Shown here: one piece after another, positions 11,478-16,604 of the stretch
Numbering within the stretch: the stretch's first letter is position 1
Layout: the number at the start of each line of letters is the position of its first letter
Assembly: GCA_902778135.1 (NCBI GenBank)
Contig: CACYWP010000012.1
Coordinates: 1-64,000, forward strand
Reading direction: 5' to 3'
From: an uncultured Coriobacteriaceae bacterium
GTDB taxonomy: Bacteria; Actinomycetota; Coriobacteriia; Coriobacteriales; Atopobiaceae
Length of the DNA stretch: 64,000 bases
Made by a program: the position numbers and the translations under genes
Notes under the pieces: generated by a model
Seen by the model: only the letters and a program-made list of their open reading frames with translations
What the model was told of the DNA's origin: nothing
The model's database searches: none

Positions 11478-12305
11478 ATGAAGGCGCATCCCGACATCAA
11501 GCTCATCCTTTCCGACATCGATGGGACCATGCTGCCGTATGGGCAGCGGCTCGTGTCGTCCCGTGTCATCGCCGCCTTCCATGCGGCGCTGGACGCGGGC
11601 ATCCGCGTGGGACCGGCGAGCGGGCGCGGCATCAGCCATGTGACGCCCACCTTTGGCGGCGACGAATCCTGCGTGGCCACTGCGCTGGCCACCAACGGCA
11701 TGCAGGTGTACCTGGACGGGGAGCTCATTCACGAGGAGCATCTGCCCCACGAGGCCCTCGAGCGCGTGTGCGAGGTCATCCATGGCATGGCGGGCGTCGG
11801 CGCCATCGTCTTTCGGGGAGGCACGCCGCTTCTGGTGGAGGGCCTGCGCGAGGATCTGGCGGAGAGCTTCCCCGTGTATGCCGAGCAGGCGGTCGACCAC
11901 GAGGGCATCCCGGACTCTCCCGTGGTCAAGCTCAACGTGTTCAACTCCGGGGGCATCGGGCTCACGCGACGGCTGCTGGAGCTGCTGACGCGCGAGGTGC
12001 CGGAGCTCGACTTCAACCTGCCCATGCCGGGCTTCCTCAACCTGATACCCCCGGGATACAGCAAGGCATCGGGCATCGACATCCTGTGCGAGGCGCTGGG
12101 CATCGGGCTGGACCAGGTGGTCACCTTCGGCGATGGCGGCAACGACCTCGAGATGATTGCCCATGTGCCCAACGGCGTCGCCGTGGAGGGTGCCGTGCCC
12201 GAGGTTGCCGAGGCCGCGCGCTGGCATGTGGGCCGCTGCGAGGACGAGGCCGTGCCAGCGGCCATCGAGGCCCTGGTGGCGGGGGAGTGGCCCTTCGTCC
12301 GGTAG
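11478..12305 (+). CDS. HAD superfamily hydrolase, Cof-type sugar/nucleotide phosphatase
   Basis: Cytoplasmic phosphatase of the HAD IIB (Cof) group. Motif I is LSDIDGTMLP with nucleophile Asp13 and acid/base Asp15; motif IV is TFGDGGNDLEMI near residue 217, and a conserved Lys precedes it in PGYSKASGIDILCE. The 275-residue length is typical. Substrate cannot be read from sequence. AGGAGATTCC precedes the ATG. A TAGAAT -10-like box at 11438-11443 may serve it. Confidence 0.9.
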   Translation: MKAHPDIKLILSDIDGTMLPYGQRLVSSRVIAAFHAALDAGIRVGPASGRGISHVTPTFGGDESCVATALATNGMQVYLDGELIHEEHLPHEALERVCEVIHGMAGVGAIVFRGGTPLLVEGLREDLAESFPVYAEQAVDHEGIPDSPVVKLNVFNSGGIGLTRRLLELLTREVPELDFNLPMPGFLNLIPPGYSKASGIDILCEALGIGLDQVVTFGDGGNDLEMIAHVPNGVAVEGAVPEVAEAARWHVGRCEDEAVPAAIEALVAGEWPFVR

Positions 12306-12313
12306 GGGCTGGC

Positions 12314-12336
12314 CACGTGCGGCGGCCAGGCACGTG
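12314..12336 (+). terminator. Stem-loop after the HAD gene, possible terminator
   Basis: CACGTGC and GCACGTG form a perfect 7-bp stem with a 9-base loop immediately after the HAD stop codon. There is no T-run, so termination would be weak. Confidence 0.35.
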
Positions 12337-12403
12337 TCGCACCACGTCGGGCGACCCCCACTAGAATGGAGGCGTCCGCATTCCCCTACGTCGAGGAGTT
12401 GCC

Positions 12404-15148
12404 GTGGTCAGGATGACAGGTGAGGTCGGCTATCGCACGGGCAAGGGGCACGAGCCGGGCAAGGGCGCGCGCATTCTCGTGACGGCGCATCCGGACGAGC
12501 AGGAGGGCCTGCTCGACCGGGTCGTGGGTCTCCTGCAGGCCCAACAGGACTGCATCGTGTACTACTTCGACGTGCGACAGGGGGAAGCCACCGAGGAGGC
12601 GGCCCCCGACCTCACGCAGGAGCGCATCGCCGAGGTCGTGTCGGACATGCAGCTCGTGGTTGCGCTGGTGACGCAGAAGATGCTGCTGCAGCCCAATCCG
12701 GCGATGGACGCCATCGTGCCCTATGCCCTCGAGCACAACGTGGCCGTCCTCCCCCTGCTCGTCGAGGACGACCGGGCGCAGGCGTACGCGCGGCGCTTCG
12801 GTGACCTGCAGTATCTCGTTCCTGACGACCCCGACCCCACGGCCCTTCCGTTCGACCAGAAGCTTGCCGCCTACCTCTCCGAGGTCCTCGTCAGCGACGA
12901 GCTGGCCCAGCGGGTGCGGGACGCCTTCGACGCACTGGTCTTCCTCAGCTATCGCAAGACCAATCGCGCATATGCCGCCGAGCTGATGCGCATGATCCAT
13001 CGCAACCCTCGCTACCGCGACATCGCCTTCTGGTATGACGAGTTCCTCGTGCCCGGGGAGGACTTCAACGAGGGCATCGGCCGGGCGCTTGCGGAGAGCG
13101 ACCTCTTTGCACTGGTCGTGACGCCACAGATCCTGGAACGGCCCAACTACGTGATGGACTGCGAGTATCCCGCCGCGCGAGACGCACGCAAGCCGATCCT
13201 GCCGGTGGCCATGAGCCGGCTGACGGATGAGGAGGGAAGGGAGCTCAAGCGGCTGTACCGCAGGATACCGGCATGCGTGGACGCGACCGACGGTGCGCTT
13301 CCCGACAGCCTCTCGCTGCGCCGTCTGCGGCGGCTCGCGACCGGCACGGGCATGCGCGACCCCCAGCACACCTTCCTCATCGGGCTGGCCTACCTCGACG
13401 GCATCAACATGGAGGTCGACCAGCAGCGGGCAGTCGCCCTGATAACCGAGGCCGCCGAGGCGGGGCTCGTCGAGGCGATGCGCAGGCTCGCTGCCCTGTA
13501 CAAAACGGGCAAGGGCGTTCGCAGGTCGCTCGACACGTCGATCGACTGGCTGGTGAGGGCGCGTGACGCCTCGTGGGACCGCTACGCCGCGGACAAGTCG
13601 GACGAGAACCTGCAGGCCCTCATCCAGGACATAGTGACGCTCGGCAACCGTCTGCACCAAGCGAGAAGGGTGCGCGACCTCTATGCGTGCCTCTACGACC
13701 AGAGGCAGCGGGAACTCGAGGCGCTCGAGCGGGGACTCGAAGGCGCCCGGCACGACCTTGCCGTGTGCCTGTGCAAGTTCGCCGAGGTGTGCGCGATGGT
13801 CGGGCAGACCTGGGAGGGTGTCGGATACTGCTGGGAGGCCGTCGCGCACTTCGAGGAGCTGCTGGTACGGGAGCCGTCCGACCCGGCGCGCCGGGACGCC
13901 TACATCGCCTGCAGGACGCTCGCGCAGATCTACGCCCAGAGGCGGGAATGGGCCGATGCGGTGGGGATGTATCGTCTCGCCAGGGAGCGGCTGCGTGCCG
14001 TGGAGACTGACGAGTACCGCGACAGCCTGGTCAGGGACCATGCCGCACTCTGGAGGGTCGAGGGCGACGCCCTGATGAGCCTGCGTCAGGCCGACGAGGC
14101 GGCTGCGTGCTACGAGCGTGCCCGAGAGGTCTCCGAAACGGCCTATGCCAAGCGTGCCGACACGGTGAGCAGGAGGTCTCTGATCAACACCTACGACAAG
14201 CTGGTCAGGCACTATCGGGGCACGGACCGACGTACCGAGGCGCGCGCATACCTGCGACGCGAGCTGGAGCTCGTCGAGGAGGAGCTGGAAGAGGCGACCG
14301 ATGCCGGGCTCAGGGTCAACGGGCTGCTCTACGAGCTGGGAGGCCTCCACGAGGAGCTGGGGGAAGGGGATGAGGCCATCCGCCGCTATCGCGCCGCCCT
14401 CGAGACGCCCGAGGAGGACCCGGACGGCACGCAGAGCCGTGAGACGAAGGTGGGTGCCCTGCGGGCGCTGACGCGCCTTTCGCACGAGGTCGGTCTGGAG
14501 GGGCGCTCGGAGGAGTTCTTCTGGCGGATGTGCGACCTGTTGAGGGAGCTCTACGATGCCACGCTTGCGCCAGAGTACCTGGAGGCACTCGGCGACGAGC
14601 TGGAGGGGAGGGCCGGCTACGACGACCGGACGACCGACGTCCGCCTCCTCGAGGAGGCCTTCGACGTGCGTCGGCAGCTGGAGGAGGCCTACCACTCCCT
14701 GGACCACAAGGCGCGGTGCGAGCTCCTGCGCGAACGTCTCGACCGCATCTACCGGGACCGCCCGGAGACCTTCCGTCCCTGGGCCGTCGTGTGCGACCCC
14801 AACGACGATGAGCGCGCTGCGCTCGTTGAGCAGCTTGGGCGGATGGGGCTGCACGTCGCGTTCGCGTCGTCCCAGACCACGGACTTCTACCGGCAGTACG
14901 AGGAGACCAGGGCGCACCTGCTGCTGCTCGGCCTGCGGAGGCGTGTCACGGGCGAGCTGGCAGACCTGCGGTTCCTGCTCAGGTCGTTGGACCCGAATGC
15001 AAAGGTCATCCTGGTGGCGGACCAGGGCATGGGCGACGTCATGGACGAGGGACTGCGCATCGGGGCCTGCGGTGCGCTTGTCCGCCCGCTCTCGCACGAG
15101 CAGCTTGAGAAGCAGGTGCGGGCAGCCCTGCAGGGATGGGGAACGTGA
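12404..15148 (+). CDS. TIR-domain protein with Sel1/TPR repeats and a C-terminal pseudo-receiver
   Basis: A 914-residue multidomain protein with no signal peptide. Residues about 20-150 look like a degenerate TIR/Rossmann domain. Residues about 176-275 are a canonical TIR domain (LVFLSYRKTNRAYAAELM, then YDEFLVPGEDFNEGI) with the likely NADase glutamate Glu254 in MDCEYP. Residues 325-400 carry Sel1-like repeats and 410-690 carry TPR helices. Residues about 797-912 fold like a response-regulator receiver (acidic CDPNDD, VILVADQG, VRPLSHEQ), but the phospho-Asp position is Gly (LLLLGLRRR) and the usual Lys is Arg. The GTG at 12404 is chosen because GAGGAG lies 5 bases upstream; the ATG at 12413 is too far. 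It stands alone with a possible TAGAAT box at 12362. A defence or stress-signalling role is inference. Confidence 0.85.
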   Translation: MVRMTGEVGYRTGKGHEPGKGARILVTAHPDEQEGLLDRVVGLLQAQQDCIVYYFDVRQGEATEEAAPDLTQERIAEVVSDMQLVVALVTQKMLLQPNPAMDAIVPYALEHNVAVLPLLVEDDRAQAYARRFGDLQYLVPDDPDPTALPFDQKLAAYLSEVLVSDELAQRVRDAFDALVFLSYRKTNRAYAAELMRMIHRNPRYRDIAFWYDEFLVPGEDFNEGIGRALAESDLFALVVTPQILERPNYVMDCEYPAARDARKPILPVAMSRLTDEEGRELKRLYRRIPACVDATDGALPDSLSLRRLRRLATGTGMRDPQHTFLIGLAYLDGINMEVDQQRAVALITEAAEAGLVEAMRRLAALYKTGKGVRRSLDTSIDWLVRARDASWDRYAADKSDENLQALIQDIVTLGNRLHQARRVRDLYACLYDQRQRELEALERGLEGARHDLAVCLCKFAEVCAMVGQTWEGVGYCWEAVAHFEELLVREPSDPARRDAYIACRTLAQIYAQRREWADAVGMYRLARERLRAVETDEYRDSLVRDHAALWRVEGDALMSLRQADEAAACYERAREVSETAYAKRADTVSRRSLINTYDKLVRHYRGTDRRTEARAYLRRELELVEEELEEATDAGLRVNGLLYELGGLHEELGEGDEAIRRYRAALETPEEDPDGTQSRETKVGALRALTRLSHEVGLEGRSEEFFWRMCDLLRELYDATLAPEYLEALGDELEGRAGYDDRTTDVRLLEEAFDVRRQLEEAYHSLDHKARCELLRERLDRIYRDRPETFRPWAVVCDPNDDERAALVEQLGRMGLHVAFASSQTTDFYRQYEETRAHLLLLGLRRRVTGELADLRFLLRSLDPNAKVILVADQGMGDVMDEGLRIGACGALVRPLSHEQLEKQVRAALQGWGT

Positions 15149-15216
15149 ACGACGGCGGGTCTTTCGAGGAAGGCGGCGCTTGCGGCCCAATGCCGTCCCT
15201 CATGCGGGTGAGAGTG

Positions 15217-15225
15217 TGCTACCAT
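15217..15225 (+). promoter_or_regulatory. Extended -10 promoter element for the pheST T-box transcript
   Basis: TGCTACCAT fits an extended -10 (TGn-TACCAT) about 10 bases before the likely 5' end of the T-box leader. No good -35 is visible at the normal distance, which is usual for extended -10 promoters. The same GTGCTACCAT string precedes the gene at 19384. Confidence 0.45.
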
Positions 15226-15235
15226 GCGCTCCTAG

Positions 15236-15520
15236 GCGATGACGGAGAGGTTTCGCACTCGCGTGAGGAGCGGACAGAGAGGGCATCCACCGGTTGAGAG
15301 ATGCCCACGGTCCTCGAGGGCGGGAGTTCACTCCACCAGCTGCGACCTGAACGTGCGGCGGGTCCGCACCAGTAGGCAAGCCGTCCACCCCACGGCACGG
15401 GGCACAGGGGCTGCGAGGCCCTGAAGGGGATGCGCGCGAGAGACAACGCGCGTGTCAAGCAAGGTGGTACCGCGGAGACTTCCGTCCTTGTGCTGTCGGC
15501 ACGAGGACGGTTTTTGTTTT
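15236..15520 (+). promoter_or_regulatory. T-box leader (tRNA-Phe sensing) with intrinsic terminator
   Basis: The T-box sequence AAGGTGGTACCGCGG starts at 15461 and is followed by a perfect 12-bp terminator stem (15482-15493 with 15499-15510) and a T-rich tail from 15511. Upstream, about 220 bases form the stem I to stem III region; a TTC triplet in the segment GGGAGTTCACTCC (near 15325) is a candidate phenylalanine specifier. Uncharged tRNA-Phe would favour the antiterminator that uses the T-box bases and let RNA polymerase reach pheS. Confidence 0.9.
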
Positions 15521-15536
15521 GAAAGGGGAGACACGC

Positions 15537-16604
15537 ATGGCACTGTCCGACGACCTCAAGGCCATTGAGGCTCAGGTTGAGGAGGGCGTGAAGAACGTCC
15601 AAGACATGAAGGGGCTCGAGGAGCTGCGCATCAAGGCCCTTGGCAAGAAGGGCCAGCTCACGGCCTTGATGCGCATGATGGGCAAGATTCCGGCCGAGGA
15701 GCGCCCGGCGATGGGCCAGCTCGCCAACGCGGTGCGCGCCAACGTCGAGACGGCCATCAAGCTGCGCAAGGAGGAGCTTGCCAAGCAGGCCCTGGCCAAG
15801 AAGATGGAGACCGAGGCCGCAGACGTCACCCTGCCCGGTCGCGTTCGCAACCAGGGCACCCAGCACCTCATCACGCAGATTCGCGAGGAGATCGAGGACA
15901 TCTTCGCCGGCCTTGGCTACATCGTGGCCGACGGTCCCTACGTCGAGACCACCTGGTACAACTTCACCGCCCTGAATGCGCCTGCCGACCATCCCAGCCG
16001 CTCCGCGCGCGACTCCTTCTACGTGGTGGACAACGCCCCCGAGGGGAAGGAGCCGCTCGTGCTGGGCGACTCCGACGTGCTGCTGCGCACGCAGACCTCG
16101 GGCATGCAGGTGCACTACATGGAGCAGAACAAGCCCCCCATCTACATGATCTGCCCGGGCACGGTCTTCCGTCCCGACACTGCCGACGCCAACCATCTGC
16201 CGCAGTTCAACCAGGTGGAGGGCCTCGTGGTGGACGAGGGCATCACCTTCGGCGACCTCAAGGGCACGCTCGACTACTTCACGCGCGAGATCTTCGGCAA
16301 GGACCGTGCCACACGCTATCGCCCGCACTTCTTCCCGTTCACCGAGCCCAGCTGCGAGGTCGACGTCTCCTGTGGCGTGTGCCACGGCAAGGGCTGCCGC
16401 TTCTGCAAGAACACCGGCTGGCTGGAGATCCTGGGCTGCGGCATGGTGGACCCCAACGTGCTGGAGAACTGCGGCATCGACTCCGAGAGGTATACGGGCT
16501 TCGCCTTCGGCATCGGCGTCGAGCGTGTCGCGGCACTGCGCTACGACCTGCCTGACCTGCGCATGCTGATGGAAGGCGACATGCGCTTCCTGCGCCAGTT
16601 CTAG
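15537..16604 (+). CDS. pheS: Phenylalanyl-tRNA synthetase alpha subunit
   Basis: Catalytic alpha subunit of the alpha2-beta2 enzyme that charges tRNA-Phe. The 355 residues show the N-terminal coiled coil, and class II motifs: motif 2 region near FRPDTADANHLPQFNQVEG and motif 3 near the C-terminus (GFAFGIGVERVAALRY). PHFFPFTEPSCEV is a family signature. GAAAGGGGAG ends 6 bases before the ATG at 15537. It is separated from pheT by 182 bases carrying a tandem repeat, not by a clear terminator. Confidence 0.96.
   Translation: MALSDDLKAIEAQVEEGVKNVQDMKGLEELRIKALGKKGQLTALMRMMGKIPAEERPAMGQLANAVRANVETAIKLRKEELAKQALAKKMETEAADVTLPGRVRNQGTQHLITQIREEIEDIFAGLGYIVADGPYVETTWYNFTALNAPADHPSRSARDSFYVVDNAPEGKEPLVLGDSDVLLRTQTSGMQVHYMEQNKPPIYMICPGTVFRPDTADANHLPQFNQVEGLVVDEGITFGDLKGTLDYFTREIFGKDRATRYRPHFFPFTEPSCEVDVSCGVCHGKGCRFCKNTGWLEILGCGMVDPNVLENCGIDSERYTGFAFGIGVERVAALRYDLPDLRMLMEGDMRFLRQF

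Follow-up and report, generated by a model that had tools for sequence, protein, structure and literature searches.

A tandem TIR-like/TIR protein with Sel1/TPR repeats and a pseudo-receiver tail in an uncultured Coriobacteriaceae bacterium

TIR effectors, TPR sensors, and pseudo-receivers have each been described before. Thoeris ThsB, the TIR-APAZ protein of SPARTA, and the TIR-SAVED protein of CBASS have the TIR fold and the active-site Glu in common with the protein considered here. In Avs5 (Sir2-STAND-TPR/Sel1), the C-terminal TPR/Sel1 region is the likely phage sensor and the Sir2 domain degrades NAD+ (PMC12931631). TIR-NBD-TPR proteins of plants and bacteria (the TNP type) carry the TIR domain on the N-terminal side and the TPRs on the C-terminal side. 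As for bacterial pseudo-receivers (PsR), they have a receiver fold without the key catalytic residues, and 2 of them, FrzS and WhiI, are reported to act by contact (PMC12632262).

The protein compared with these systems is encoded on the forward strand of the window, i.e., the whole 64,000-nucleotide stretch of DNA analysed here. In contrast to the Thoeris, SPARTA, and CBASS effectors, it has no ThsA, Argonaute, or SAVED part and carries a TIR-like domain in tandem with the TIR domain, followed by Sel1/TPR repeats; it matches the ThsB and SAVED_TIR profiles weakly. PADLOC calls no known defence system on it, the best match being a weak one to ThsB (E 0.0028), and no ThsA (SLOG- or Macro-bearing effector) lies adjacent to the gene. 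With Avs5 it shares a putatively NAD-consuming N-terminal domain and a C-terminal TPR/Sel1 region; however, no STAND NTPase is found, TIR stands instead of Sir2, and the receiver is extra. Unlike the TNP type, it has no nucleotide-binding domain, but 2 TIR-like domains and Sel1 repeats between these and the TPRs. Its pseudo-receiver differs from the described PsR in being joined to a TIR/TPR protein, PMC12632262 mentioning no TIR or TPR fusions. Two paralogues in the same genome (L005 and L006; 1099 and 809 aa) and Clostridia relatives (L042 and others) have the same TIR-like/TIR/Sel1/TPR core with ~40-49% core identity, but end in TPRs and have no receiver. The original prediction knew of no such layout among described TIR defence proteins. 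In the openly accessible papers, to which the search was confined, no description of the layout was found, which is not proof of absence.

Domains of the 914-residue protein

According to frame, profile, and model evidence, the gene and its product comprise the following features, all on the + strand.

12404..15148, +: gene of the TIR-like/TIR/Sel1/TPR/pseudo-receiver protein (open frame; full-length homologues; GTG start)
12393..12398, +: ribosome-binding-like GAGGAG, 5 nt upstream of the GTG (read from the sequence)
12413, +: alternative ATG start
12461..12898, +: N-terminal TIR-like domain, aa 20-165 (model versus SARM1 TIR; catalytic Glu absent, Ile104 in its place)
12926..13339, +: TIR domain, about aa 175-312 (PF13676 and fold matches)
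13163..13165, +: codon of the putative catalytic Glu254 (no variation in 82/82 family members)
13349..13573, +: Sel1-like repeats, about aa 316-390 (PF08238; PDB Sel1 proteins by sequence and by fold)
13574..14743, +: TPR region, about aa 391-780 (TPR_7/TPR_2 and weaker TPR matches)
14771..15133, +: pseudo-receiver domain, about aa 790-910 (profile, model, fold search)
14930..14932, +: codon of Gly843, at the phospho-Asp position (alignment to CheY 6er7 and relatives)
15083..15085, +: codon of Arg894, in place of the conserved Lys (aligned with CheY and relatives)

The frame is uninterrupted over 914 codons and encodes, from N- to C-terminus, the TIR-like domain, the TIR domain that carries Glu254, Sel1 repeats, TPRs over ~390 residues, and a receiver fold. 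It is not a chance ORF of high-GC DNA, because relatives at loci of ~52-53% GC match it collinearly from the core through the receiver. A 934-aa open frame on the opposite strand (12386-15190) is a high-GC shadow, homologues existing for the + frame only. NCBIfam profiles give nothing firm on the protein.

A profile of the TIR-like/TIR/Sel1/TPR core was run on a genome collection and yielded 454 pattern matches, with 417 loci encoding relatives. The best 80 of these 417 loci were kept; 91 proteins were extracted as ORFs, and 82 cores were aligned. The structural model of the core, built on the 82 sequences, reaches pLDDT 90.3 and pTM 0.87. Foldseek with this 2-TIR model returned mixed double-Rossmann matches, which were sorted by domain through realignment to PDB chains. 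After realignment, the second domain matches the TIR domains of IL-1RAcPb (Z 14.1), SPARTA TIR-APAZ (13.9), and SARM1 (13.8), and Pfam places TIR_2 at aa 179-281 (E 7e-13, above the cut-off). Glu254, proposed from its DCEYP context as the active-site residue, indeed sits at the TIR active-site position (W/N-x-x-x-x-E motif after strand C). It is one of the residues that never vary in the 82 aligned cores, together with S182, Y183, R184, W210, D212, G218, T240, P241, and N248. At 2 near-invariant residues of the strand A loop, near the active site in sequence-motif terms, the window TIR deviates (K186T and D187N), which leaves room for a possibly weakened TIR in this copy. The gene product is a probable immune-type TIR protein with putative NAD-cutting activity.

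The degenerate TIR-like domain suspected ahead of it is confirmed by its fold: the model of residues 12-159 aligns with SARM1 TIR (7anw) with Z 12.3 over 132 residues at 3.5 A. The catalytic-Glu position of this first domain is occupied by Glu in 37 of the 82 members, by Asp in 26, and by other residues in the rest (Ile104 in the window). Its own motif is far more uniform, with H29 in 79 members and position 32 being Asp in 80 and Glu in the remainder. Since this motif is kept, the first domain appears to be a TIR-like unit that is conserved and specialised, and more than a copy in decay.

Regarding the repeats, their presence is confirmed, whereas their extent had been put at about 350 residues and is nearer 470 (about aa 316-780, Sel1 and TPR together). 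Pfam finds Sel1 at aa 357-388, and this part matches SEL1L by fold with Z 14.1; several Pfam TPR models match between about aa 505 and 680, with the TPR call itself at about aa 547-674. At E 10, Pfam matches no NACHT, NB-ARC, or AAA anywhere in the 914-aa protein, i.e., a STAND NTPase domain is not found.

For the C-terminal tail, the Pfam Response_reg match is weak (aa 796-905, E 0.0024, below the cut-off). A receiver profile of 4 sequences, however, retrieves CheY and further receivers from the PDB (best E 5e-9), and the AlphaFold model from the same 4 sequences has a (beta-alpha)5 fold with pLDDT 80.1 and pTM 0.77, this being the best of 5 models (the remaining ones scored lower, 43-70). 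The top 50 Foldseek matches to the model are all receiver-domain or response-regulator-type proteins. Profile, model, and fold search thus agree on the pseudo-receiver that had been predicted, and rule out a false Pfam match, a third TIR, or a flavodoxin as the identity of the tail. Both substitutions read from the sequence earlier, LLLLGL instead of the phospho-Asp motif and Arg for the conserved Lys, hold in the alignments to CheY and the family (Gly843 and Arg894, respectively). The Thr position is taken by Ala872 or Val871, depending on alignment register, and of the acidic pair Asp798 is kept with Pro799 as its partner. According to these alignments, Asp798 is the only one left of the 5 pocket residues for Asp phosphorylation, and the tail fits the PsR definition of PMC12632262 (receiver by profile and fold, key residues gone). 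Judged by its pocket, the window receiver can presumably no longer be phosphorylated by the usual chemistry.

The wider family and its receiver-bearing clade

The extracted family proteins have the TIR-like, TIR, and Sel1 core in common, and the window protein scores 508 bits against the core profile, retaining 84 of 97 strongly conserved positions. Among the best 80 of the 417 loci, most belong to MAGs of Clostridia from the guts of ruminants and other animals, and Eggerthellaceae and Spirochaetaceae contribute single cases. In the host family, relatives occur in a minority of genomes (13/140 with any match), and phage, plasmid, and viral collections give no match. The neighbours of the 80 loci are mostly housekeeping genes with no widely recurring neighbour; defence models match few of them, and a defence island is not supported by the immediate neighbours. 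Family members stand in tandem arrays at several loci (L050, L066, and L117).

Most members terminate in TPRs or related helical sequence. Two coriobacterial relatives have Flavodoxin_4 at the C-terminus (E 6.5e-10 and 5e-11), and a few members have transmembrane-like segments near the C-terminal end. Given these flavodoxin and membrane-helix tails elsewhere in the family, the receiver is one among several C-terminal additions to a common core.

As for individual loci, the C-terminal Flavodoxin_4 follows the TPRs at L030:3281-7684 and L031:2-2851. L034:5043-7514 and L038:3005-5425 encode divergent members in which an extra N-terminal extension, helical and HEAT-like by eye, precedes the 2 TIR domains, and L117:1336-12335, from one Clostridia MAG, carries 4 family members in tandem.

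The suggested search for TIR-TPR-REC architectures showed that the window protein is neither isolated nor unique, given the 417 core loci and 3 receiver-bearing relatives in other genomes: L039 (Mogibacterium RGIG2438), L040 (Mogibacterium RGIG5272), and L041 (Clostridiales RUG12442). A fusion widespread in the family is likewise ruled out, since the receiver occurs in 4 of about 104 proteins examined, among which a profile of the 4 tails finds no further receiver. A full-length match is present in 1 of 297 genomes of the order of L039. In a quick tree of core columns only, with receiver columns excluded, the receiver-bearing proteins form one clade (SH-aLRT 100), and the receiver fusion is of single-clade origin.

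The phosphorylation pocket is complete in none of the 4 receivers. L039 has a D/D pair, Glu at the acceptor position, and Lys; L040 lacks the acidic pair and has Gly and Arg; L041 has one acid, Asp, and Arg, and is the sole member where Thr is possible; the window protein has a D/P pair, Gly, and Arg. Since no pocket is complete, phosphorylation is unlikely to be the working mode of the clade. The receiver is also the fastest-evolving part of these proteins. Identity between clade lineages is 63-69% for TIR, 31-53% for TPRs, and 19-28% for the receiver; the L039 core is 61% identical to that of the window, and the receivers of L040 and L041 are 77% identical to each other. The dN/dS values for L040 versus L041, a single sequence pair, are 0.04 for TIR, 0.035 for Sel1, 0.15 for TPR, and 0.45 for the receiver, the last on about 85 synonymous sites. 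These values fit either diversifying contact surfaces or relaxed constraint and do not separate the two.

L040 and L041 encode the receiver-bearing gene within an operon-like cluster (L040:377-8125 and L041:5046-13391). Its order is a protein with a DSP-type phosphatase and a TIR-like part, a 182-aa protein, the TIR-TPR-receiver protein, a SLOG-like membrane protein, and a RyR-domain protein. The ORF of the SLOG-like membrane protein, which has weak DUF4231, DprA, and YAcAr matches (SLOG and DUF4231 below the Pfam cut-off), overlaps the 3' end of the receiver-bearing gene. Together these genes possibly make up a signalling system of several parts. The genes of L039 and of the window stand alone. 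A relative of the L041 SLOG-membrane protein was detected neither in the window's genome, by a weak search without positive control, nor at other family loci.

Insertion site and transfer

The surroundings of the gene are HAD, M19 peptidase, pheS, and pheT, and the elements that define the site are as follows.

11478..12305, +: HAD-type hydrolase, left neighbour (PF08282)
12298..15202, +: inserted segment, missing between HAD and pheS in 4 congeners
15203..15515, +: pheS leader with T-box, right border of the insertion (conserved in congeners)
15519..16604, +: pheS, right neighbour (PF01409 and PF02912)

The conserved right flank begins at about 15203, and the 3' part of the T-box is recognised at 15424-15489 (Rfam RF00230, 29 bits, below the gathering score). 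In the congeners G132, G139, G127, and G135, the HAD gene stands directly before the pheS leader and no TIR gene is present. Because this site is empty in the 4 congeners, the window gene is a single-gene insertion of about 2.9 kb. A fifth congener, G133, has at the same place an unrelated 377-aa ORF with no Pfam match (L197:8766-9899), so insertions may recur at this site.

The GC content of the insertion is the same as that of the host. The core of the window protein is 55-61% identical to Firmicutes relatives, in comparison with 35-37% between the PheS proteins of those hosts and window PheS; for this reason the window gene is probably foreign, and its movement across phylum boundaries is very probable. 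Window PheS is 62% identical to PheS of an Eggerthellaceae MAG, which points to a coriobacterium as the probable host.

Elsewhere in the window's genome, L007:4587-7829 encodes a 1080-aa protein that joins a ThsB-type TIR to a beta-propeller-like region. The gene beside it (L007:7848-10001) encodes a protein of 717 aa that has no Pfam match but, by eye, an EHDRW motif like that of RyR.

Proposed mechanism and alternatives

The reading we put forward, at roughly even chances, is that of a horizontally spread single-gene TIR NADase effector triggered through its TPRs, with the receiver as a docking or assembly module that works independently of phosphorylation. In the resting state, the second TIR would be kept inactive by the TIR-like domain in front and by the Sel1/TPR superhelix. 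The trigger would be a protein, most plausibly phage-derived, that binds the fast-evolving TPR superhelix; the effector would then assemble, and TIR active sites with Glu254 would cleave NAD+, leading to growth stop or a nucleotide signal. Since a STAND domain is missing, the TIR, TIR-like, and tail parts would themselves have to bring assembly about. Standing outside ordinary Asp phosphorylation, the receiver would act by contact, in a slot that is left empty, or filled by flavodoxin or membrane helices, in other members. TPR-triggered activation is proposed by analogy with Avs5; the NAD cleavage, the trigger, the autoinhibition, the anti-phage role, and the docking role of the receiver are inferred. 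In favour of the effector reading are the invariant Glu with the TIR signature, the NADase-TIR fold, the gradient of constraint, the incomplete pockets, the one-clade fusion, C-terminal exchange, the empty site, cross-phylum spread, tandem arrays, and the Avs5 analogy. Against it count the housekeeping neighbours, adjacency to pheS, the lack of a called defence system, K186T/D187N, and dN/dS taken from one pair.

There are also other explanations of the whole protein. An unlikely one is Thoeris-like signalling, where TIR would make a signal of the ADP-ribose type for a SLOG-domain membrane protein to read and no killing by NAD depletion would occur. The gene overlap and cluster order of L040 and L041 speak for it, with the receiver-bearing gene running into the start of the SLOG-like transmembrane gene, the RyR-domain protein next, and the phosphatase-TIR-like protein before, as does the proposal of SLATT proteins as partners of TIR and other nucleotide enzymes (PMC7159879); 80 of the 82 members also match ThsB models, although weakly (E 0.01 or better). 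However, the SLOG and DUF4231 matches stay below cut-off, no homologue of the SLOG protein is detected in the window's genome or at other loci, and L039 and the window gene are alone. We are equally doubtful of a non-defence role in stress, redox, or nutrient physiology, with TIR serving regulated NAD turnover or assembly only. Housekeeping surroundings at most loci, flavodoxin and receiver tails suggestive of physiological inputs, and absence from the phage and plasmid records searched are consistent with such a role, whereas the patchy distribution, cross-phylum transfer, tandem copies, and the empty site in sister species form the pattern of an accessory conflict gene.

As for the receiver alone, it could be a vestigial domain that is decaying and functionless, and the lowest identity (between lineages) and the highest dN/dS of all domains point in this direction. 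That its dN/dS is still below 1 and that it is kept without frameshift or truncation in 4 proteins of 2 phyla make this improbable. Least probable of all is a receiver that still serves as phosphorylation input in the clade, its loss being confined to the window copy. L041 does keep the acceptor Asp and perhaps Thr, and L039 the acidic pair and Lys, its Glu at the acceptor place being common in plant and fungal pseudo-receivers (PMC12632262); no member, however, keeps all 5 key residues, and L040 lacks the Asp in spite of its closeness to L041 in the receiver.

On a broader and more tentative view, which we regard as possible but not as the likelier case, tandem TIR-like/TIR/Sel1/TPR proteins would be a widespread family of gut-bacterial immune receptors without an NTPase switch. 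The TIR-like domain would be the fixed, conserved partner of the catalytic TIR, the C-terminus an exchangeable slot tying activation to a second cue, and the pseudo-receiver a piece of two-component signalling that immunity has recruited through protein contact in place of phosphorylation.

The larger point behind the window gene is an uncharacterised family: TIR proteins of gut Firmicutes and Coriobacteria that number in the hundreds, and for which the open papers searched describe no function, become testable with a handful of proteins. The clade of 4 receiver-bearing proteins is a natural experiment in the reuse of a phosphorylation domain, with the pocket broken differently and the fold kept. 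The activation mechanisms of pseudo-receivers are said to be unknown (PMC12632262), and this clade would give pseudo-receiver research a case with a possible enzymatic read-out, namely NAD loss.
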